A stretch of DNA of 64,000 nucleotides, taken from Quercus robur (taxonomy: Eukaryota; Streptophyta; Magnoliopsida; Fagales; Fagaceae). Shown one piece after another: positions 19,523 through 49,889 of the stretch. The notes under the pieces were generated by a model. It ran no database searches and was not told the origin of the DNA. It saw only the letters and a program-made list of their open reading frames with translations. The position numbers were made by a program, and so were the translations under genes. Location: assembly GCF_932294415.1 (NCBI RefSeq), contig NC_065545.1, positions 18,418,857 through 18,482,856 on the forward strand. The letters run 5' to 3'. The first letter of the stretch is position 1. Each line of letters opens with the position of its first letter.

Positions 19523-21957
19523 GCTTTCTTGGGCCTTCAGTTTTCTTGCGACCTCCTTCCCATCTGGTAGGACGTCATTTTTCAAGTAGGAGACTAATGG
19601 TGTGGTCCAGTCATCTACAGAACCTATCTCCTGCACATCGATGGAATCTATTAGTGGAGCAAGCTGAACAAAAGTACATTATCAAGGGCGATCATATGTT
19701 CCGCTGAAGCAGCTTTGGCAAGGCAGTCGGCTTGCTCATTCTCTCCTCTAGGGATTTGGATGATCTTGGCCTGTAGGTCGTCTACCCTTCTCCTTACTTG
19801 CTCCAAGTACTTCTTCATCCTTTCGCCCTTGCATTCATAATCCCCGTTCACTTGGTTGGTGACGACCTGAGAGTCATAATAAAGAACCACAGTTGCGGCC
19901 CCTGCCGCTTTGGCGAGATCAAGTCCCGCCACCAGAGCTTCGTACTCTACTTCATTTTTGGTGGTAGGGAAGTCGAGGCAGACAATACATTCAATCTTGT
20001 CTCCTTCAGGTGAAAGAAGCATGATACCTACTCCATCGGCCTGCCTGTTAGACGACCCGTCTGTATGAATACTCCACTGAAGATACTCATCTACCCCCTT
20101 GTCTTCCCCGTTGGTGAACTTTGCTATGAAGTCAGCGATGACCTATCCCTTGATGGCAGTGCGTGGGCGGTACTGGATGTCAAACTCACTCAGCTTTATC
20201 GCCCATAGTGCCAATCGACCAGCAGCTTCCGGGTTGCTCATTGCCCGTCGTAAGGGCTTGTCGGTTAGGATGATCACTGCGTGGGCTTGAAAGTATGGTT
20301 TGAGTTTTCGGGCCGTCGTAACTAAGGCGAAGGTGAGCTTTTCCATGGGTGGGTACCTTCCCTCTACACCACGAAGTGCTTAGCTGGCATAGTACACGGG
20401 CTTTTGAACCTTGTCTTCTTCCCTAATTAGGGCTGGGCTGACGGTTGTTGGGGAGACATCCAAAAAGAGGAAAAGTTCTTCTCCAAGTTGTAAGGGACTC
20501 AGTAGCAGTGGGGAAGAGAGGTAGGCTTTTAGATCCTCGAATGCCTGCTGACACTTGATCGTCCATTCAAAAGACTTTTTCAGCGTGCAGAAGAAAGGTA
20601 GACACTTATCCGTTGCTCTCGACATGAATCTGTTCAACGCTGCTACTTTGCCGTTGAGGCTTTGCACTTCTTTTATGTTCCTTGGGGGCGTCATTTCTAC
20701 TATGGCTCGAATCTTGTCAGGGTTGGCTTTAATACCCCTTTGAGACACCATGAATCCTACGAACTTTCCTGCCATTACCCCGAAGACACACTTACTTGGG
20801 TTGAGTTTCATGTTGTAGGAGCGATGGATGTCGAACATTTCCTTGAGATCCTCCAAATGGTCATTCTCCCTTTGGCTTTTTACCAGTATGTCGTCAACGT
20901 AGACTTAGACATTCCTCCCAATCTGGTTCGCGAACATCTTGTTCATGAGCCTTTAATACGTCGCGCCTGCATTCTTGAGGCCAAATGGCATCATTTTGTA
21001 GCAAAAGAGGCCTTGGCTAGTAACAAAAGAAGTCTTCTCCTAGTCCGCCTCATCTATCCGAATCTGATTATAACCCAAAAAGGCGTCCATGAAGCTTAGT
21101 AGTTGGTGCTGAACTGTAGAGTCTACTAGTACGTCGACTCGAGGGAGAAGGTAACTATCCTTGGGGCATGCTTTGTTCAGCTCTATGAAGTCTACGCACG
21201 TTCTCCATTTTCCGTTGGCTTTCTTGACCATTACAACGTTTGCCAACCAGTTAGTGTAGTATACTTCTCTGATAAAGTCTGCCTCTTTCAATTTTCCAAC
21301 TTCTTCTGCTATTGCTCGGTCCCGTTCTGGGGTGAACACCCGCTTCTTCTGATGGATTGGTGGAAAAGAAGGCGATACATTCAGCTTGTGTACCATGACC
21401 AAGGGGTCGATTCCTGGCATGTCTTCATGGCTCCAAGTGAATACGTCTTGGTTCATTCTGAGAAAAGTTGAGAGCTCTTAGTGAACCATCGCGCTGGCGA
21501 GGGTACCGATCCTTGTGGTTCGATCTAGTCTGGAGTCATTGAGGGTATCTCCTCGAGTCTTTCTACCAGTTCTGCCATCGTCCTCTGCTCTTCTATGTTC
21601 ATGGTCTGTAAATGGTCATCCATCTCTAACATCACGATATAACATTGGGGCATTGCTACCTTCCGGCCCCTTTTGGTCCCTTCTCTCAGCGCTAGTACCT
21701 TCTTGGTCTTCCTTTTGGGTACCCATCGCTGCATTCTTCTGCCGTAGCTGTTCCTCTAGGTCTTGATTCTGTTTGGTGAGACGTTCCATTGCAGCTATGA
21801 GGGTTTGGACCTACCTCTCCAGGGCAATGGGTCATGGCTCGTCTTCCTGAACGTTGTTGGTGGTCGCTATCGAGCGAGTAAGTATCATGCAACTCTTTGT
21901 CCAAGAAGCGATAATATGGCTTACAAGTCGCTAAGAGTTCCCACAGACGGCGCCAAT

Positions 21958-26568: not shown

Positions 26569-26575
26569 TATAAAT
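26569..26575 (+). promoter_or_regulatory. TATA box of the dehydroquinate/shikimate gene
   Basis: TATAAAT lies 110 bases before the ATG at 26685. It is followed by a C/T-rich leader (about 26611-26676), a common plant 5' UTR composition. The first three bases are the last three of the MITE target duplication. Confidence 0.7.
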
Positions 26576-26684
26576 TAACAAGCTTGCTCATTGGTGGCTA
26601 GTGAGGTTCTAAAATTTCTCTCTCAATTTCTCACTTCTCTCACTTTCTCTATCTTTGTCTTTCTATCATCCATCTCAAATAATA

Positions 26685-29600
26685 ATGGCATTCAAGAAAA
26701 ACCTGCTAGTGTGCACACAACTACAATGTGAGACCATGGAAGAAATGCTGGCTTCAATGGAGAAAGCCAAGGCAGAAGGTGCAGACCTTGTGGAGCTTTG
26801 CATAGATTCCATGTCATTCTCCCACACTTCTGAGGTTGAGAAGCTCATCAAACAAAGAGCTTTGCCAGCCATAGTCTCTTACAGGTAGCACCTCTTACTC
26901 ATACTTCTCCCACAATAGTATAGGTCTCCATCTATTTTGTCACCTCCAATTCTCTCCCACAGTATTTGAAAAGGCTCCTCCTCTTCATTTGCCTAAAAAA
27001 ATGTCCCTTTTGATATTGCTTCATTTAAAATTTTATTCTCCTTCTACTATGTAAGGATGATTTTATATAATATGATATTATATTCACTTTTAGATTTTTA
27101 AACCACCATATCCTAATATCATCTCCAGCAAAAAAATATATATATCCAGCAAAGAAATATCCTTATATCATCAAATGGACCTTCTCCATTCAAATCAAGT
27201 GAGGAAAATCTCTGCTCATGAAAAACATAATGTCACAATCTGCTAAATATAAAAGATCTTCTTTTGTTCAGAAGCTTGTCACCTTTAATGAATGAATAAA
27301 AATCTTCTATCCAACCAATGAAAGGTATACTCCACTCATAGTAACCAAAATTTAAAATAATATCAGCTGGTAGAGTATAAAATGAAAACTCAGATTGGGA
27401 CATAAGATTTTTATCAATTATGATGTTCAAAACCATTTTATTAATTATTTTCTTTTTACAATTAACTCAAACTAGTCTAGACTATTTAGCAGAGAAAAGA
27501 AAAAGAAAGTAAAAAGAGAAGAAAAAACCCAGAGAAATTGATTCCAGTTGAACAATAAGCCAACTCAAAACACTTATTGCCACACTATTGTCCCCTATGC
27601 CACCTTTTAATTTGCATGTGTAATAAGGGAACTTTTCAAATGAGCTTTTTGATCTAATCTGCAGGAATCAATAGAGAAGCTAAATCCCTTGTGATATGAC
27701 AGATTTGGCTCTTTAAATCTATAGATTTAAATACAATTCTTTGTGACTTTCCCCTAGTACAGTGTTTAACTGTTAATACACAAAACTCTAAGGGCTTGAC
27801 TAAGTGAATCCTAAGTCTCATGATATTCATGAGATCCTGAATTCGAATTTTCTTGCCAGCATTTTAGAGCTACTCTCAAGAAATTCCTCTCTATAACTCA
27901 GTATGTGTGGAATAGAAGGACTGTACATAATCAAAAGTAATCAAATATTCGAAGAGATTTAGGTACCTCCAAAACTACTTCCTTCGTCTTCATCCAACGT
28001 CGGTTAAGTGGTACAACTTTGTTTTTTTGGCAGTGAGTTCAATCACATGGAATTGAAGTGAGGTGGTCTCCTTTCAAAATAACTTACATATAATGGCCCT
28101 TTAGATAGGACATGGTACTTTTGTTTGATTGCCTACTTTTCAATTGACAAACCTAATTTTTGTTGGCCCCGTCGTACCTATATATGTAAAATTATGTCAG
28201 TGATCGTATCTCAAAAAGATGCAATTCTTACCAAGTGTATAGTTATCATCTAGCTTTTTTGGATGCGAATCACGTGCATACATATAGGTGAGATTCACAT
28301 CTTAATCATATAACTCGTACAATAAGCAACGGACGACCCGTGGCCGTGGGAACAATGTTGAGTAAAGTTCCCAAATTTTAATTGGACCGACAACCAATTC
28401 ATGATTAATTAGACTGTGAACATTGATATGAATGCCAACACTGGCTTTCTCATCAACTAGTTATTATTAAGTAGATATGTCCAGTGTGGGGGGCTATTGC
28501 ACTTTTAAAAAATTATTATTATTATTAAGTTTAAGAATATTATTAAATTTTTTTTCTTAGTGCTAGTTTGCCAAAACTTTTTTTAGTTTATTTCTAGTTT
28601 ATCTACAATTTCTTAAATTTTATTTTTTTTAGATATAATTGTACTTTTACTTAATAAATAAATAAATAAAACTCAATATTCCAATGAAAATAAGATCTCC
28701 CAAATGCACACTTAAGAAGTAGAAATTTAGCATAAAAAAAAAAGATGTAGAAATTTATTGGTATTACTTAGAACTGTATCCATTAAGATTAAATTATGTG
28801 GGATTAATGTAAAATTTAAAAATATTTCATCATTAAAATAATCTCCCTTAAATTTTGAAAAATAAAAAATATCCTCCTATTTTTATAAATGACACTGCAT
28901 CCCATGTTTTATTTGATTTATACAACAAATAATCCCTTATGACTATTTATATCCATTACAAATTGAATCAAATACATATTTTTTTAAATCCATTTTCCAT
29001 CCAAAATGATACTTATTAACCAAATTGATTATATGATAAGAAAGAAAAAAAAAATAGCCTCAAGTGGTTAAATACTTTTTTTGAAAATTGAAGGGGGTTT
29101 CTAAATTCTAACATTTTCCAAAACTTTAGTAGATGTTAGTGTAATTTATTTAAATAATTATTACAATATAGTGAGTTAGCTTATTTTATTTTGAAAAAAA
29201 CTATAATTATCTATTAAAAATGATTAATGAAAAAAAATTTTGTTTCCCTACCGGAAGAGGGGAAAGTAGATGTGGTCCAACACTCCAAGACTGTGGGGAC
29301 TGAGACGTGTAGCTGAGCCTGAGCCATAAATAGCTTATCACTACCAAACTGACCTGCAACCATACAAACAACATAAAACACGTAGTTTGGACAATGTTCT
29401 AGAGATCCACAGCTTTCCTGGGTTTGACAAGTACATCTTTTCCATATTTTCGTTCTCCACGTGTTTTCTATTCTGTTTTTGGTTTTTTGGGTCTATCTGC
29501 GGCACTCTGGCCCAACCCAATAATTAATAAGTGTGACATATTTTGACGTTTTCAAAGAAGATATATAAATTTATAGACTTTACCAAAATAATGCAAGTTA

Positions 29601-32600
29601 CATAGCATTTTGGTTTGACTAGATTGTTTTTACTTTATTTATCTATTTATAATTTGATAGTTATAATGGAATGAAATTATTTGTGTTTTTTTTTTTTTTT
29701 TTTTTTATAAGATAGAATTCTACTCTAACCTAATCTAAGTGTATATATGTGTAAAACTCATTTCTGGATACTTGAACCCCAGTCCTTACCCCCCACACCG
29801 CACAAACACTTATACTTGTAGAGTAACCACCGCACCAAGGATGTGCGGTAATAGGAAATGTTAATTAAATTACAAGACTTTTGGTTAGATTTGTTTGATG
29901 AGTAATACTATAGTCACAAATTATTTTACAATATTTTTATAAACTGTTGAAATAACAAATTTTTAAGGGTTATTATTTGGTCTCACCATTAACATCATTT
30001 TTTTACTTACTAATAACCTTTCATTACATCAACAGTTTGTAAAATAGTTTGTTTCCTTTAACATTTTTCTTGTTTGATTGCTGATGAGTGATGAGCATTT
30101 TTCTTGTTTGATTGATGATGAGTGATGACATTTATGTGAATTAAAGGACTTTTCAAAATTATTGATTCATATTTGGGTCCACCATATTGTAATCAAGCCA
30201 TGTGACATTGTCAAGTTTATTTCATATCACATTATGGCATTTTATAGGTTTCTTAATGATTGTAATATCTTAGAAACTAAAATTACCTTATTAAAAAAGC
30301 ACTAAAATTTCTGAGATAATTTCAGGCTGAAAGGAACTCATTAGTAAAACTTTGCTTTTTGATGGGCAAATAGATTACTTTAGTGAGTGTACCCCCACCC
30401 ACGAGATGTTATCTTGTGCCCAAGATTTTTTCCCCACCCACAATGGATGGGTAGCAGCAGCCCATTTCTCAAATTTCAAAAAAAAAAAAAAAACCTGTAG
30501 TGAGTGTACTTCAAAGTTCAAATTGAATGGGTCTTGATCACCATGCCAAAAAGCCAACAATTCACTTCAAGGGTCTCATAGCTTAGTGGCATGTCCGGAT
30601 AGCTCAATTCCAATATGAGGTTTCTTCTCTAGCTCAATGTAGCCAAAAGTGAGGAGGTAAAACACAAAAATCAAAAACAAAAACAAAAACAAAAAAAACA
30701 AAAAAAAAAAAACCCACCAAAATCAAATATTGGAGAGACCATACTAGATTAAAGAATGCATATGAGAGGATTCTTTATAATTATTCACAAGAAAAGAAAA
30801 AAAAAGATCTTAAATGACATTTTTTTCAGCAAAATAGTGTTCCCTACAAAATATTAACAAATATAATTCAAGCACACACGATTTATGAAATGGTGTAGCA
30901 CCCTTTAAATTAAAGAACTTCTAAGAATTTTAAAACTCGGAGTTCATTTTGACAATAACAAGGAAAGTAAGAATAAAGAAGTAAACCAAACATGTTCAAA
31001 TTAGTGCTATAATAATAGCAGTACTAACTAGTAACTATTAAGAGTAACAATTAGGTGGATAAAAATTCCTTGATATTTACCACAATTGCCATTCACAGGC
31101 TCAAATCATCAAGGACTTCAGGCAAAGGAGAATGCAAGACTACCTGCATGCAAGTACTGAGACTGGCTCTTGAATTAGATGTTGAATTCGTTGAAATGGA
31201 TTTTGAGGTAGTCATCCCTTTTTTTTCAAACCCCTCCTCCCTTTGGAATATAAACTATAAAGTATTACTTATCCACTTGTCCTTATATAACTGTCATAAC
31301 TACGACAAGAAGTACACTCTACACTATTTTATATTTTTAATTTCGGGTTCATAATGAAAATCTTAAGTCTTAAACATCTGTCTTCATTTGTGTTAATATG
31401 TAAGACATATATAGTGTTGAAAACCCAAACTAGTACATTGAAATTTGGTCCGAATATTTGTTTTTGCCATATATAACTATATCTAAAGTTCATTTAGCTT
31501 TGTTGTTTTCTTTAATACTCCCAACTAAAGTGAAAAATTTCAGGTGGCTTCTGATATTGGCATGGCTGAATGCATGTACAAGCGTGCCAATAGCAAAATA
31601 ATTGTCTCAAGCTTTGTGAATGGTGGGAAACCTTCAAATGAAAGACTTGGTAATCTGATTGCATGTATGCAATCAACTGGAGCAGATGTTATTAAGCTTG
31701 TTATTGATGTGGATTATATCACAGATTTGGCACCGGTTTTCCAGATGCTTGCTCATTGCCAGGTATTTGTTTATACAATTGATGTCACAAATTCAACAGC
31801 ATGCATATTAAGTTACGTATTGCTTTCCTCGTATTAGTTGTGACATTCTTAATGGGGCGCAGATTTTCACGAGGACATCACAAATTTGCAAGTATTCATT
31901 ATATGTTAGTTGTGACATTCTCCAAGTATTCATTGTAACATTCTTTAATGGTCTGTAGTTTCTTTCTTGTGTTTGCTGTGATAAATTCTGTTCTGTATTG
32001 GTATTATATGTTTCCTAAAACAATGTAACACTAAAAAGTAGCATTTGTTAGAAAGACTCATGGCTTAAGATATAACATGGTCTCTAGAACACTACAATGC
32101 AGCATTTCAAAACAACCTTAAACGCAAAAACTAAAAAGCAGAGTTAGAATTCATCCTGCACCTCTAGTACTTTCTTTGTTTTCAAAAGTTTTTCAGGCAT
32201 AAAGGAATATCAGATATTCTTCTTTCTACTTATTTTTTCAAATTAAATTAATTCAGTTTTCTTTCTATAGTATAAACAACATTAGTCATTTACTACTTCT
32301 ATGTGTATCTCCAGGTGCCATTAATTGCTATTGCAGTGGGTAGCAGAGGTCTAATAAGCCAACTATTGGGTCCTAAATTTGGTGGATTTTTAGTGTATGG
32401 ATCTCTGGAAGGAAAATCAGTACCTGGGTTGCCAACTTTAGTCAGCCTTAAACATGTTTACAAACTTGAATACTTGAATGCAGATACAAAAGTTTTTGGA
32501 CTCATTTCAAATCCAGTAGGTCATAGCAAGGGTCCTATTCTGCACAACCCTGCCTTTAGACACACAGGATATAATGGAATTTATGTTCCCATGCTGGTCG

Positions 32601-35178
32601 ATGATATCAAGGAATTCTTTAGAACCTATACAGGCACTGACTTCGCAGGTTTCAGGTATGCAGCCACTCTTTCATAAAAGAAAAAGAAGAGGATCATCCC
32701 ATTGCTTGTCTTGTAAGGTTATTTTGCAACTGACTCCTTCAAAAAACTTGTTCTAAATAATGTTATCACCTAGAGTATCAGATACTTCTATGACTTATGT
32801 ACGCTTCCTGTTCTCCATTCATAACAGGCTCAATATTCTCTTTAGTTTGTGGGTATCAACTGTCACATTAGGCATTTGCTTTCTCAAAAATCATGGTGCA
32901 CACTTTTGCATTGGCCAAATGTATAAATTGTGCTTGTTTGGTACAATCCCAATGCTTTTTTCTCTAATGTAAGGTTTTTTTCCCTTTATTCGATGAAACT
33001 TGTAGTGTTGGAATCCCACACAAAGAAGCTGCAGTTGGGTGTTGTGATGAAGTACATCCACTGGCTAAGGTCAGTAAACTTGGTAATATAAACACTTTTT
33101 GAACTGCTACCTGAACAAGAGGAAAAAACTTTTAAAACATTGCTATAGGTTTGTTGACTGTGTTCCTTTAACAACAATCCCTACATATATTTGCTATATA
33201 TCTGGCCATATATAATGAAAATTTTTTATGTCAAATAAGTAAACTACTTATGATCCTTTGTTACATTACTGTAATTCCACTAATCCAAGTCTGTCTTGAG
33301 CACCAGACAATGACAATGGCACAAGACCTGGAATGAAGGTGTATTAGATATATACAACTCAGCTGAGTAATTGGGATTATTAAAATCCAGAAGTTGACAT
33401 TAACAAATCTTCTATGGAGGCCTAGATATCAGATATTAATAACGATACTTTAGGGTTTCAGCTTCAAGGCACACTACTTTTTTTATTGCTGTGTTAATTG
33501 TAGGGTCATGTTTATATAAGCTTCTAAATTGTGGTATGCTTTCTCAATCAGTCTATAGGAGCTGTAAATACTATTGTAAGGAGGCCTATTGATGGGAAGC
33601 TGATCGGTTATAACACAGATTGTGAGGCTTCTATCACTGCAATAGAGGATGCATTAAGAGGTACTGTGATAATTGAAGTGTTACTTTCTTGATTATTTAG
33701 ACGATAGCTGTATGTATCTTTCTAATTCTTTGTATATCATTTAAAGTTGAGTACTACTCGGGCCAGGAATATAAATGTATATTGTTTTGGGGAGAATGGA
33801 GTACTTGATTGCTTTGTTTGTTACAGGGTTCATCACCTTTACTTTTTTGTTTTGCAATACCATTAATAATTTGATGTTTTTAAACAGAATTACCAGCAAC
33901 CTGAAATGGATGATTACTTGATGGACGACCATGTATAATGATAGTATAGGTAAAAGAATAGACAATTATATCAAGTGGTGTCTAGATAGAATTACTTATG
34001 TTTATTTTGTCTGGACAGAGAGACGAGTTGCCAATGGAGAAGCATTACGTACTTCTCCTCTAGCTGGGAAAACATTTGTATTGGTTGGAGCAGGAGGTGC
34101 AGGAAGAGCACTTGCTTTTGGTGCTAAAAGTAGAGGTGCTCAGGTTGTCATATTCAACCGGAATTATGGTAATAAGGCAATATTTTTCTCTCCTTTTTAG
34201 TATTACAATTGAAGATCAGCTTTCTTGTCTCTAATCTTGACATTTCTCTTTTGAAAAGAGAGAGCAAAGTTGCTTGCAGATGCAGTTTCAGGGGAAGCTC
34301 TACCATATGAATGCTTAAAAAGATTCTGCCCTCAGGAGGGAATGATCCTTGCAAATGCTTCTGCTATTGGAATGGAGCCAAATACTGATCAAACTCCTGT
34401 CTCAAAGGTTTTCTCTCTCACTCTCTCTGAGCAAATAGGTAATAACTCAGAAGAACACATTGAATAATGTATTGCCTCTTGTCATGCTTCTTTAGGAGAC
34501 CTTGAGAGCATATGAGCTGGTTTTTGATGCGGTTTATACACCTAGAAATACACGGCTCTTACAAGAGGCTGCAGAGGTTGGGGCCATCGTAGTGAGTGGA
34601 GTGGAGATGTTTATCAGACAGGCCCTAGGCCAATTCAGACTCTTCACCGGTGGCTTAGGTATCAGTCCTCCTCTTATGTCAAACCATTGATTTATTAATT
34701 TAACAAAAGGGGTTTTATTTTTTTTAGTAATTTTTACCAATCCATTTACTTTGAAATGGAGACGGTCCATTTTAAGGTTGAAGACATGGTATTTCAAAAA
34801 TCTAAAGGTGAATAAGATACCAAGTCATTTAAAATAAGATATCATTTCTTATTTGGTAGAATGAAAAAAATTTAAATGATATGGTAACATGTAAACCTTA
34901 GATGCATATAAACTAAATCTTCATCATGAAATAGGCTCTCTTTTTTTTTTTGCTAAGCCATGAAATAGGCTCTCTTAATGTCAAAGGAAATGGAGAGAAT
35001 CATTCTCCATAGGTTTAAACTTTTTATTCTTCAATGTATTATTGTTGAATTTGTTCACATGTAAGATTCATTTCTTTTGGTTAAATTCTAACAGCAGGAG
35101 CATTAATCTTTATTTTGTTTGAATTGCTTTTCAGCTCCAGAAGATTTCATGCGCAAGCTTGTTCTAGCACAATTTTGA
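26685..35178 (+). CDS. 3-dehydroquinate dehydratase/shikimate dehydrogenase-like protein, divergent
   Basis: Ten exons: 26685-26884, 31099-31207, 31544-31762, 32315-32655, 33006-33069, 33552-33660, 34019-34168, 34259-34407, 34496-34658 and 35135-35178. All have GT..AG introns and compatible phases, giving 515 residues. Residues 1-225 form the type I dehydroquinate dehydratase (AroD-like) domain; about 235-515 form the shikimate dehydrogenase (AroE-like) domain, with NADP-loop GAGGAGRA (371-378), NTD (332-334), GAVNT (314-318), K296, Y461, Q489 and Q493 kept. Compared with the Arabidopsis enzyme as I recall it, the dehydratase His is Phe127 and its Gln is Leu215, while Lys154 and Arg187 remain. 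In the dehydrogenase, SHS is GHS (245-247) and the Thr of TIPHKEA is Gly292. The protein starts at MAFKKNLLVC with no transit peptide, suggesting the cytosol. Plant relatives with these changes include quinate dehydrogenase and gallate-linked enzymes, so strict shikimate synthesis should not be assumed. No break was seen. Confidence 0.92.
29685..29850 (-). mobile_element. tRNA-derived SINE (same family as 12674-12860), reverse orientation
   Basis: Read on the minus strand it starts ACCGCACATCCTTGGTGCGG, has A-box-like TTGGTGCGGTGG, a good B-box (GGGGTTCAAGTATCC) and the shared segment ATGAGTTTTACACATATATA, and ends in poly-A (poly-T at 29687-29706). It lies in intron 1. No clean target duplication was found. 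Confidence 0.8.
30566..30715 (+). mobile_element. Possible SINE with (CAAAAA)n tail
   Basis: GGGTCTCATAGCTTAGTGGC resembles a tRNA-type A-box region. The segment ends in a (CAAAAA)n-like tail (about 30675-30712). No clear B-box or flanking duplication was found, so this is tentative. Confidence 0.35.
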
Positions 35179-35945: not shown

Positions 35946-36750
35946 TTACTGCATTTCATCTGGTGCAGGAAACCCCAAATGCTTAAAAGATGTAAAGCCT
36001 CCATCTAATACCAAATTATGCCCACTAACATACTTGGCATCATCAGAAACAAGATAGAGCGCAGCATTAGCTACATCATTGGGTTCACAACTAGTTCCCT
36101 CCAAAACACCAGCATTAGTAACCACTTCCACAAGCTGTCGATCATCTACACCAGGAAAAACCTGACTCATTTCATCCATTACAAACTTAGTTGGAATGGC
36201 AAATGGTGATATACAATTCACCCGGATTCCATACTTGCATAGCTCTGCAGCCACAGACTTAACAATGCCTATAACAGCAAATTTGGACACACAATATGTG
36301 TGCTGTGCTAACCCATCCATTAGTCCTGTAACACTAGCTGTGCAGAGAATTGATCCAGTTTGACATGGGATCATCACACGTGATGCATGTTTGATCCCAG
36401 CCATGACTCCCCGCACATTGATGTCCATGATTTTATCAAAAACTGCCAGATCAAGGTCCACAATGCTTGGGGGAGTTTTGCAGGGCACCCCTGCATTGTT
36501 GTACATGATATCAAGTTGGTTGTACTTAGAGATGGTAAAATCAACAGCGTTGGATATGTCAGACTCTTTAGTGACATCACAGGCAACAAAAGTAGCATTG
36601 GTTCCAAGCTCTTTTGCAGTGTGTTGGCCAAGTTGATGTTGGATATCAGCAATAACAACTTTAGCACCATTGTTGATAAATTTTGCTACAGTTGCCTTTC
36701 CTATGCCACTTGCTCCTCCAGTTATCAATGCTACCTTGCCTTCTAGTTTG
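35946..36750 (-). CDS. Short-chain dehydrogenase/reductase, secoisolariciresinol dehydrogenase-like (main exon)
   Basis: An NAD(P)-dependent oxidoreductase of the classical plant SDR group that includes secoisolariciresinol dehydrogenase, xanthoxin dehydrogenase and momilactone A synthase-like enzymes. From the in-frame Met (36728), the cofactor loop TGGASGIG is at residues 3-10, the Asp after beta-2 (ADIQ, D28, favouring NAD) follows, then NNAG at 77-80, catalytic Ser132 and YCVSK (Tyr145, Lys149). The end is at the TAA at 35946-35948. The coding sequence continues upstream of that Met as KLEGKVAL to an acceptor (ATAG|C at 36751). In this family a short first exon encodes the N-terminus, and I found no convincing candidate for it. 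The exon shown gives about 267 residues against a usual 270-300. The frame is clean. It converges with the gene ending at 35178. The substrate cannot be told from sequence. Confidence 0.85.
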
Positions 36751-36799
36751 CTATGTTATAACATAAGAAAGGGTTTTAAGCATCAAACCAAAACGATCC

Positions 36800-40675: not shown

Positions 40676-43082
40676 TTAAAATAACTATGGTTTCAGTTAA
40701 TTCAACTGTTAAAGTCTCTTCTAGTCAAATAAGAGATTTGTCTACACCAAAAACTAATGATAAAATACAATTATCAAGAGTGAATGTCAAAGATTGAAAC
40801 TATTTCTATTTAAAAAAAAAAAGTAAAATAGTTTCAATCATGTAGAAGAGAAATAAATTAGTTCCCTTCTTTGTAAAAACTCCAAAAAATAGTACTAATA
40901 TATTTAATCCAACATCTTAAACTAATCAAACTCCACTTCCCGAATAACCTGAAGATCTTATTAACGGAGCTTGTTCTATGTTGCTAGACCCAATTACCAA
41001 TCAAATTTGTTACAAAAATAGTTATCACATCCCCAATTACACTTTTGGTTTCAATATCGAAATAGACTAAATGTATACCCACAAATTTGACAACATGATA
41101 GACCACAACCCTAATAGCAATCAACATCACACAGCTAAGGTAATGTTTTTGCTAACTAGGGAAATTGCTAACATATTTACCACTATTTATAGTTTACAAT
41201 ATCAATATTGCAAAAGATGAGAGAAATTTTAATAACCATCCCAGATTCTTCCACCAAATTCCAATAGATTAGAGCTGAAAGAAAAACTACTTTGATCACT
41301 TTTCCATTGTAAATGCTTGATTGAATTTTTAAGTCCAAAAATTCCCAAATTTCAATACTAAGGGCCCATTTGGTAGAGGAGTTTGAGTAATATTGTTTGT
41401 AGTTTTTTAAAATATGTGTGAAAATATGTGTAATGTTATTTAAAAACTGAAAATAAGTTGTTTAACAACTCTGCCAAACATGGCCTAAAAGTCTAAAAGA
41501 GAATAGACAAAAAAATAAAAAGCTTTCAAAGTACATTCAAATGCTTTCTTTAGATTCACAAATCTATATATAATCTCAAGTATTTCAATCCATAGGAAGT
41601 GGTCCCACTCAACAATTGTTTTAGTATCATTAACGGTTTTGGGTGAATTTACCAAACAATCACTGCTAGGGAAAAAGCTAATCCTATGTTTTTTTTTCCT
41701 TGAGAAGAAGCTAATCCTAAATTAGGATTGTAGTATATAGTATATATACCATGCTAATAGTTTGGATTCATATTATTTTACTTGATTTATGGGCCTCCTG
41801 ACCATAATAAATAAAATAAACGACCAAATTATACATCCTTGTGATTCCTACTTTCAAAAATAAAATTCTTTAAACCAATTATATATATATATATATATAT
41901 ATATATTTAGGAATTCAAAAGGGAAAATAAATTAATTGAACCAATGCATTTGCAATGATTAAAATGACTTAAACACATAGTACCAAAGAATGATAAAGAA
42001 GAAAATAATACCATCTGCGTGTATAAGCCCAAAACAACTCTTCAAATCCAGACTTCTCTTGGAATATACGAGTGAGAAGATAGATATTCCAGCAAAACCT
42101 TATATAAATTCTTGCTATATGTCGACCCACAATATGCCCAATCTAAGAAGAAAAAAAAAATTGTAATATCCTAATCATAAAATATCCAAAGAAACAATTA
42201 ATATAAAAAGAAAAAGAAACAGACCTCATGCCCAATAAATAATGCTAACTCTGCATCGAACTTTAGACTGTCGAGTAACCCCCTAGGAATAACAATCCTT
42301 TTATTAAAGTGGGAGAAGTGGCAGAAGTGTAAAGCATCTTCTTCATCAGGGCAATCCAACACATAAACTTCCCAATCTTTTCCATCCAAATGTTTAGTAC
42401 TAGATTTCCATAAGAGTTTACGATCAGAAAGAAGATTCCCTCCTTCATATTTAAAGTTGTTAATGTGATCTCCATTATCTCTTTCCCACTCGCAACGTAC
42501 CCTATACTCTCTAAAATCTCCATCCTCACATGAATGCCCATTGACCTTGCACTCCTTTTCAAGCCTTAACCCCACCTTCATTGCTCTAATCAAATTTGTA
42601 GCTACAGATTGTGCCCTAATACTCCTAGGGTCTGATAAAGGGAGTAAATCTTCTTTGTATCTCTCCATAAACGTCTTCCAGCGATCCTCTGCCCTCCTTT
42701 CCTCCGTTGTTTCTTTGGTAACAAGTTGAATTTGTTTTGTGTATGGTACTCTTTGTATTCTCACATAAGAAAGAGTAACACAAGCAGCAAAAGCACCAAA
42801 CAGCAAACTACCCTTGTTTCTTTTACAAAATCTCAGACATCTTTGTGCCCACAAATTAAGTGAAGGAGTTGTAGCTGCACTGTTTAGGAATTTCTGAGAA
42901 AAATTTGCGTGGTAAAATCTCCTTGTACATGTATGAATCATATGTTGCACTCCAATTACTCCAGCCAACCCCACAGAAGGAACAATCTTCGAATTGAAAA
43001 TTCTACTTGCTGCAATCGTGTTATGGCTACTTGGCATGAACTGGCTTCCCATCAATTTTATCAAAGAAAACCCCATTACCAT
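37889..43082 (-). CDS. OMA1: OMA1-like mitochondrial zinc metallopeptidase (family M48), composite model
   Basis: OMA1 peptidases act in mitochondrial inner membrane quality control. Proposed exons: 43082-42225 (copy B), 42142-42012 (copy B) and 38099-37889 (copy A). Phases fit (0, then 2) and the reading frame is open for 399 residues. The N-terminus is basic and Ser-rich, like a mitochondrial presequence. One membrane helix lies at about 91-108 (GSLLFGAFAACVTLSYV). HEIGH (285-289) spans the exon 1/2 junction and is the M48 zinc motif; NEREANHIG (331-339) matches the family's ExEADxIG with Asn for Asp. The C-terminus is shorter and differs from the Arabidopsis protein (At5g51740, 442 residues, as I recall). 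The model splices over about 3.9 kb that includes copy A's partial exon 2, so whether this transcript is made is inference. Alternatively, A and B are both broken copies. Confidence 0.6.
38283..38407. mobile_element. Small hAT-like MITE in OMA1-like intron 2 (copy A)
   Basis: The ends GGGCCCATTTGGTAGAG and CTCTGCCAAACATGGCCT are inverted repeats. About 125 bp, AT-rich inside. The same element sits at 41361-41488 and 48180-48303, so it entered before the duplications. Confidence 0.75.
39100..40060. repeat. Duplicated flank block X, first copy (without inserts)
   Basis: Aligns with 51545-53660 (shared blocks include AAAACTACATTCAATTACTA, GAATTGGAGAGAGAGAGTAC, AAGTTGTGTATGCCT and ATGGTTTT..TTTCTTGAATTC). 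It lacks the MITE and the hAT element present in the second copy. It directly follows truncated copy A. No gene was recognised within it. Confidence 0.85.
40627..40672. repeat. (AT)n microsatellite
   Basis: About 23 uninterrupted AT units. Confidence 0.97.
40687..40800 (+). mobile_element. Decayed SINE (family of 15318-15473)
   Basis: ATGGTTTCAGTTAATTCAAC, then CTACACCAAAAACTAATGAT and ATTATCAAGAGTGAATGTCA, align in order with the two other copies but with deletions. The poly-A tail is near 40813-40824. Confidence 0.55.
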
Positions 43083-48743: not shown

Positions 48744-49889
48744 GGAATTCAAAAGGGAAAATAAATTAATTGAACCAATGCATTTGCAATGATTAAAATG
48801 ACTTAAACACATAGTACCAAAGATTGATAAAGAAGAAAATAATATCATCTGCGAGTATAAGCCCAAAACAACTCTTCAAATCCAGACTTCTCTTGGAATA
48901 TACGAGTGAGAAGATAGATACTCCAGCAAAACCTTATATAAATTCTTGCTATATGTCGACCCACATTATGCCCAATCTAAGAAGAAAAAAAAAATTGTAA
49001 TATCCTAATCATAAAATATCCAAAGAAACAATTAATATAAAAAGAAAAAGAAATAGACCTCATGCCCAATAAATAATGCTAACTCTGCATCGGACTTTAG
49101 ACTGTCGAGCAACCCCCTAGGAATAACAATCCTTCTATTAAAGTGGGAGAAGTGGCAAAAGTGTAAAGCATCTTCTTCATGAGGGCAATCCAACACATAA
49201 ACTTCCCAATTTTTTCCATCCAAATGTTTAGTACTAGGTTTCCATAAGAGTTTATGATCAGAAAGAAGATTCCCTCCTTCATATTTAAAGTTGTTAATGT
49301 GATCTCCATTTTCTCTTTCCCACTCGCAACGTACCCTATACTCTCTAAAATCTCCATCCTCACATGAATGCCCACTGACCTTGCACTCCTTTTCAAGCCT
49401 TAACCCCACCTTTATTGCTCTAACCAAATTTGTAGCTACAGATTGTGCCCTAATACTCCTAGGGTCTGATAAAGGGAGTAAATCTTCTTTGTATCTCTCC
49501 ATAAACATCTTCTAGCGATCCTCTACCCTCCTTTCCTTCGTTGTTTCTTTGGTAACAAGTTGAATTTGTTTTGTGTATGGTACTCTTTGAGTAACACAAG
49601 CAGCAAAAGCACCAAACAGCAAACTACCTTTGTTTCTTTTACAAAATCTCAGACATCTTTGTGCCCACAAATTAAGTGAAGGAGTTGTAGCTGCACCGTT
49701 TAGGAATTTCTGAGAAAAATTTGCATGGTAAAATCTCCTAGTACATGTATGAATCATATGTTGCACTCCAATTACTCCAGCCAACCCCATAGAAGGAACA
49801 ATCTTCGAACTGAAAATTCTACTTGCTGCAATCATGTTATGGCTACTTGACATGAACTGGCTTCCCATCAATTTTATCAAAGAAAACCC
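47785..49889 (-). pseudogene. OMA1: OMA1-like copy C (pseudogene, all three exons present)
   Basis: Counterparts of all exons are collinear: exon 1 (about 49889-49059), exon 2 (48976-48846) and exon 3 (47995-47785). Several lesions relative to copies A and B are visible. The paired start codons (ATGGTAATG in B) have become AAGGCTAAT. A TGG codon in the EDRWK stretch is TAG (near 49515). The donor after exon 2 reads ATG|AT instead of ATG|GT. An 18-nt in-frame deletion removes LSYVRI from the membrane helix. HEXXH would read HEIGH here as well. The remaining sequence is highly similar to A and B, so the decay is recent. Confidence 0.88.
48180..48303. mobile_element. Small hAT-like MITE in OMA1-like intron 2 (copy C)
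   Basis: The same element as at 38283-38407 and 41361-41488, with ends GGGTCCATTTGGTAGAG and CTCTACCAAACATGGCCT. Confidence 0.75.

Follow-up and report, generated by a model that had tools for sequence, protein, structure and literature searches.

A probable monofunctional quinate dehydrogenase gene of the plant DQD/SDH family in Quercus robur

Gene structure and domain organization

In this study, we analysed a 64,000-nucleotide stretch of the Quercus robur genome (assembly GCF_932294415.1, contig NC_065545.1, positions 18,418,857 to 18,482,856, forward strand), referred to below as the window, which holds at 26685-35178 (+) a gene of the dehydroquinate dehydratase/shikimate dehydrogenase (DQD/SDH) family that probably encodes a quinate dehydrogenase. 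A first-pass annotation of the same DNA had proposed an intact ten-exon frame, and this was borne out: the ten exons join into 1548 bases, or 515 codons plus a stop, with no internal stop and with GT-AG borders at all nine introns. A spliced alignment guided by the Arabidopsis chain 2GPT alone agrees with this model at the boundaries of introns 1-8 (eight of nine); it spans 26706 to 34651 and ends within exon 9, so that the ATG and exon 10 come from exon joining only. The features of the gene, with equivalent residues numbered as in Arabidopsis DQD/SDH, are as follows.

26569..26575, +, putative TATA-like element TATAAAT (pattern match), about 115 bases upstream of the ATG
26685..26884, +, exon 1: start codon, N-terminal dehydratase half, ELCID (Cys39 for Arg126)
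26885..31098, +, intron 1, 4214 bases
31099..31207, +, exon 2: dehydratase half
31544..31762, +, exon 3: dehydratase half; Phe127 for His214, Lys154 = Lys241
32315..32655, +, exon 4: end of the dehydratase half (Gln192 for Arg279, Leu215 for Gln304) and start of the dehydrogenase half (Ser247 = Ser336, Gly249 for Ser338)
33006..33069, +, exon 5: Gly292 for Thr381, Lys296 = catalytic Lys385
33552..33660, +, exon 6: Asn317, Thr333, Asp334 (= Asn406, Thr422, Asp423)
34019..34168, +, exon 7: nucleotide-binding part, NRN cofactor motif (residues 394-396)
34259..34407, +, exon 8: nucleotide-binding part
34496..34658, +, exon 9: Tyr461, Gln489, Gln493 (= Tyr550, Gln578, Gln582)
35135..35178, +, exon 10: C-terminus and stop, outside the 2GPT-guided alignment

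Four Pfam families matched the protein over the cut-off, namely PF01487 (DHquinase_I, 143 bits), PF08501 (82 bits), PF18317 (36 bits) and PF01488 (29 bits), and a fifth, PF02826, stayed below it. The order, a type I dehydroquinase followed by three shikimate dehydrogenase families, is the make-up of plant DQD/SDH. Among 55 distinct solved sequences matching the protein, the best were the Arabidopsis DQD/SDH entries 6BMB and 2GPT, members of the same two-domain family that matched over the full length; identity to 2GPT was 242/501 overall, 77/219 in the dehydratase half and 165/282 in the dehydrogenase half.

Residues of the two active sites

Sites are named after PMC7752791, PMC4892741 and PMC6797610. 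A single offset of 89 on the 2GPT chain gives the published letters at His214, Lys241, Arg279, Ser336, Ser338, Thr381 and Lys385, and also fits Asn406, Thr407, Thr422, Asp423, NRT483-485, Tyr550, Gln578 and Gln582 (the NRT motif is placed one position higher in PMC4892741). Since this offset fits, an overlooked catalytic His due to misalignment was ruled out.

In the dehydratase half, Phe127 stands at His214 and Gln192 at Arg279, while Lys154 is kept at Lys241; two further sites are changed, with Cys39 for Arg126 and Leu215 for Gln304. For Arg126 and Gln304, a part in dehydration is assumed by analogy with bacterial enzymes. The substitution of the catalytic His by Phe127, the kept Lys154, the ELCID in place of EIRLD and the Leu215 at a conserved Gln had all been noted in the first-pass annotation and hold in the 2GPT alignment, as does the assignment of the His and Gln positions on which they depend. 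Arg187, which had been taken for the kept Arg, belongs instead to GSRGLISQ; the substrate-binding Arg279 aligns to Gln192, thus this residue is lost as well.

The dehydrogenase half keeps Ser247 (Ser336), Lys296 (Lys385) and Asp334 (Asp423), together with Asn317, Thr318 and Thr333 (Asn406, Thr407, Thr422) and Tyr461, Gln489 and Gln493 (Tyr550, Gln578, Gln582). Two sites differ from Arabidopsis: Ser338 is Gly249, turning SKSP into SKGP, and Thr381 is Gly292, and these two changes are the published quinate-dehydrogenase pair. The cofactor motif at 483-485 is NRN (394-396), NADP-type and without Asp, and the protein also carries the Ser-Val-Gly motif. At the sites that characterize the bifunctional groups I, III and IV the protein departs from the expected set, reading Phe, Lys and Gln in the first half and Gly and Gly in the second; Thr381Gly, Ser338Gly, the kept Lys385 and Asp423 and the substituted dehydratase catalytic residues are those of the quinate-dehydrogenase branch.

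The first-pass annotation had named two sites in this half as marks of quinate or gallate clades. The Gly292 before IPHKEA is indeed the Thr381 site. The other, SHS read as GHS, does not qualify: its Gly, residue 245, is no published binding site, Ser336 is retained as Ser247, and GHS is common to all four modelled paralogs described below, three of them, the canonical copy included, with a complete dehydratase set. By alignment the diagnostic change is Ser338 to Gly249 (SKGP), which was not among the sites listed earlier. The proposal that the loss of the catalytic His leaves an oxidoreductase agrees with the residues, the catalytic dyad being kept; such a state, with both active sites remodelled, is already known from Eucalyptus EcQDHa.

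Relatives in the same genome

The genome (785.7 Mb, 42 contigs) was searched with the dehydroquinase family, which gave at least 19 exon matches at six places: four on contig C6, 11 on C3 in three genes (4, 4 and 3), three on C41, which contains the window, and one on C4. A search with PF08501 gave five places, and the NAD-type copy on C3 was not among them. Both searches score the best candidates only, so these copy numbers are lower bounds. The gene on C6 and each of the three on C3 were modelled; spans are those of the aligned parts.

C6:48289743-48297797, canonical DQD/SDH copy (His, Arg, Ser, Thr, NRT)
C3:14982935-14988169, gallate-type copy, group IV-like (L009; Asn406Ser, Thr422Val)
C3:15001158-15005631, gallate-type copy, group III-like (L010; Thr407Asn)
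C3:15013295-15018623, NAD-type quinate-dehydrogenase copy, group II-like (Tyr214, Gln279, Gly338, Gly381, DID)
C4:82596733-82597088, exon 4 fragment (L013)

The three C3 genes (L009-L011), two gallate-type and one NAD-type quinate dehydrogenase, lie inside 36 kb (C3:14982935-15018623). By the locus numbers in PMC4892741, Poptr5/Poptr2 and EgSDH3/EgSDH2 also look like neighbours. A second, canonical copy, the check that had been suggested, is present on C6, and a leader is likely for it.

The C4 sequence matches window 32065-32755 over 692 columns at 95.4% identity, covering exon 4 with its intron edges. Twelve exon bases (four residues) are missing, changes number 10 in 329 exon columns and 8 in 349 intron columns, and the exon changes fall 4, 3 and 3 by codon position; this copy is a dead fragment. 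The part of its spliced alignment past exon 4 is spurious, and the adjoining stretch (L014) yielded nothing credible. A DNA search with window exon 1 returned only the self-match across the genome.

Tree, branch lengths and selection

A small, unrooted tree was built for six proteins, namely the window protein, its four paralogs and Arabidopsis DQD/SDH as the sole named plant protein (best model Q.plant+G4). A 100% split sets the window protein, together with the NAD-type copy on C3, apart from the canonical, the two gallate-type and the Arabidopsis proteins, and the pairing recurs with each half alone. Among the four DQD/SDH-type proteins one inner split has only 59%, and the dehydratase half alone orders them differently. 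The partner of the window protein in this tree is the genome's own DID-type copy, which is assigned to the quinate dehydrogenases by its residues.

With the topology fixed, the length of the window branch is 0.85 substitutions per site for the dehydratase and 0.17 for the dehydrogenase half (ratio 4.9), and the NAD-type C3 branch shows the opposite order (0.29 and 0.41). Three-way counts with four outgroups gave private changes, window to NAD-type, of 44:18, 45:14, 38:25 and 40:23 in the dehydratase half, where chi-square exceeded 3.84 with three of the four, and of 13:29, 15:27, 16:29 and 15:24 in the dehydrogenase half, where it did so with one. NG86 dN/dS against the NAD-type copy was about 0.26 for the dehydratase half and about 0.13 for the dehydrogenase half, rough values since dS is near saturation (dS was obtained for six of eight window comparisons, four pairs by two halves). 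In our reading, a dead dehydratase half is still held, loosely, as a scaffold, and the live half is under strong selection.

Start codon and upstream region

The ATG sits 5 residues ahead of the point where alignment to the 2GPT chain begins. An in-frame stop lies upstream at 26610-26612, and the 72 bases between the two contain no AG and thus no canonical splice acceptor; further upstream, TATAAAT starts at 26569. All this favours the claim of the first-pass annotation that there is no transit peptide, although it is not proof: a leader exon could conceivably be spliced, in phase, to the AG that ends codon 4 (TTCAAG). Both gallate-type C3 copies have no in-frame Met before the core, the in-frame stretch starting with TTTTTGTAG or GCTGCAG, so that a leader exon seems needed there. 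The canonical C6 copy, with an acceptor-like TTTTCAG ahead of the core followed by an in-frame Met, likely has a leader. In the NAD-type C3 copy, an ATG of its own lies close to the core. A composition search for leader exons returned none for the C6 copy, two overlapping candidates for L009, none for L010 and seven at four places for the window gene, and did not discriminate among them.

Other features in the window

A long open frame at 35946-36755 (-), on the opposite strand and about 770 bases beyond the stop codon of the gene, encodes a short-chain dehydrogenase (Pfam adh_short_C2, 193 bits). Two partial frames at 42198-43082 (-) and 49032-49511 (-), much alike by eye, have weak M48 peptidase matches, one slightly below and one slightly above the Pfam cut-off, and are likely a local duplication. 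Retrotransposon-like remains occupy 19651-21477 (-), with an RVT_3/RNase H match at 19651-20142 and, by eye only, polymerase-like frames beside it; the adjoining frame 21040-21477 had no Pfam match.

Discussion

Five DQD/SDH groups were described by Bontpart et al. (PMC4892741). In two of them, II and V, residue 381 is Gly and so, one exception apart, is residue 338; a cofactor motif with Asp is given for group II only, and group V was then uncharacterised. A 2024 paper on red alder (PMC11578710) reports all five groups from the Fagales it used, including Quercus robur and Fagus sylvatica, and names the Ser-Val-Gly motif as a group V feature. In a Fagales genome, the window gene is thus an expected member of a known set. 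The window protein resembles group V (Poptr4, EgSDH1, CsSDH2, SlSDH3; ArDHQD-SDH5/6) in Gly338 and Gly381, in Ser-Val-Gly and in a cofactor motif without Asp, with no difference in what PMC4892741 and PMC11578710 state in their text, the likeness being one of descriptions rather than sequences. On these residues we consider the window gene quite likely to code for a group V quinate dehydrogenase that is monofunctional, its dehydratase half being inactive. Group V is probably the group D of Tahara et al. (PMC7752791), who describe a plastid NADP-dependent quinate dehydrogenase clade; they and the authors of the red alder paper differ on how well this NADP-type branch is known.

Among the closest known enzymes is EcQDHa, which uses NADH to reduce 3-dehydroquinate to quinate; no dehydratase activity was detectable in it, and it is predicted outside plastids (PMC7752791). 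It shares His214Phe, Arg279Gln, Ser338Gly and Thr381Gly with the window protein, but its motif at 483-485 is DID and its cofactor NAD, where the window protein has NRN. The DID copy on C3 carries Tyr214, as do tea CsDQD/SDHb and grape VvSDH2 (PMC6797610). EgQDH2 of Eucalyptus grandis, like the window protein, has NRN and falls in the quinate-dehydrogenase branch (PMC7752791). Relative to Arabidopsis DQD/SDH, the window protein has lost the dehydratase His and the substrate Arg and has Gly for Ser338 and Thr381; as told in PMC7752791, Thr381Gly is enough for quinate activity and Ser338Gly improves it.

Several points weigh against this assignment. It is drawn from residues named in papers rather than from a tree with group V sequences, and the red alder paper calls the biochemistry of group V unknown and reports faint expression of two alder group V genes, ArDHQD-SDH5/6 (PMC11578710). 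In addition, EgQDH2, with its NRN motif, is predicted by Tahara et al. to be plastidial (PMC7752791), whereas the window copy shows no visible transit peptide. EgSDH1, placed in group V by PMC4892741, is yet named there under group I with proteins for which a transit peptide is predicted, thus a Eucalyptus group V member may have one.

The red alder description of group V also leaves some room for a dehydrogenase acting on a hydroxylated cyclohexane acid other than quinate, all the more as the substrate call hangs on two residues; however, Ser-Val-Gly and Ser338Gly are common to group II, members of which have been assayed as quinate dehydrogenases, and we regard this as unlikely. Slightly less likely still is a decaying or weakly used gene, with an intact frame and little or no activity in the plant. 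The long dehydratase-half branch and the faint alder expression would fit decay, but 515 codons without stop or frameshift, intact splice sites throughout, the short dehydrogenase-half branch and the rough dN/dS values speak against it, and the truly broken exon 4 copy on C4 looks different. A canonical copy with sequencing errors was ruled out, the substitutions being many and scattered and the frame intact.

The first-pass annotation had favoured a gallate/quinate gene in a tannin-rich tree, and of the two compounds quinate, as substrate, is the one the residues make likely. A gallate-forming DQD/SDH serving tannin synthesis has gallate-type relatives on C3 to recommend it, and the window protein likewise keeps the Arg of the cofactor motif. 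Gallate-group marks are Thr407Asn for group III and Asn406Ser with Thr422Val for group IV, and neither is among the groups in which Bontpart et al. (PMC4892741) saw Gly338 and Gly381; the window protein, with Gly, Gly, Asn, Thr and Thr at 338, 381, 406, 407 and 422, bears none of these marks, and the gallate reading is therefore unsupported. Two other genes, L009 and L010, do bear them, and in Eucalyptus gallate kinetics were measurable for EcDQD/SDH2 and 3 only, not for quinate dehydrogenase (PMC7752791). We thus hold a gallate function to be highly improbable.

For a quinate dehydrogenase, we infer from the residues a reversible reduction of 3-dehydroquinate to quinate with NADPH by the dehydrogenase half, the dehydratase half being presumably retained as a folded, non-dehydrating part. 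Gly292 and Gly249 would make room for the quinate ring where the canonical enzyme fits shikimate, Lys296 and Asp334 would carry out catalysis, and Arg395 of NRN would bind the NADP phosphate. Loss of dehydratase activity would keep the first half from depleting what the second half works on, as proposed by Gritsunov et al. according to PMC7752791.

Chlorogenate, a common phenolic of plants, has quinate as its acid moiety. From the upstream region we infer a cytosolic location for the window protein. The two quinate dehydrogenases without visible transit peptides, NAD-type on C3 and NADP-type in the window, might form a cofactor-split cytosolic pair that makes and breaks down quinate, which we offer as a tentative and rather doubtful possibility. 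If true, it would contradict the published model of an NADP-type enzyme acting in plastids, and 3-dehydroquinate would have to exit the plastid or be formed outside it. A cytosolic sub-family of DHQD-SDH is already presumed by the red alder authors (PMC11578710), so the location part of this proposal is not wholly new.

The branch is known but little studied, and the window gene is mostly an ordinary find, made mildly interesting by the long branch of its dead half together with the lack of a visible transit peptide. In the literature covered, no branch of the DQD/SDH family has been studied less than group V, and this assembly, with the window-type gene in full once alongside copies of the other four types, would allow substrate, cofactor and compartment to be tested cleanly.

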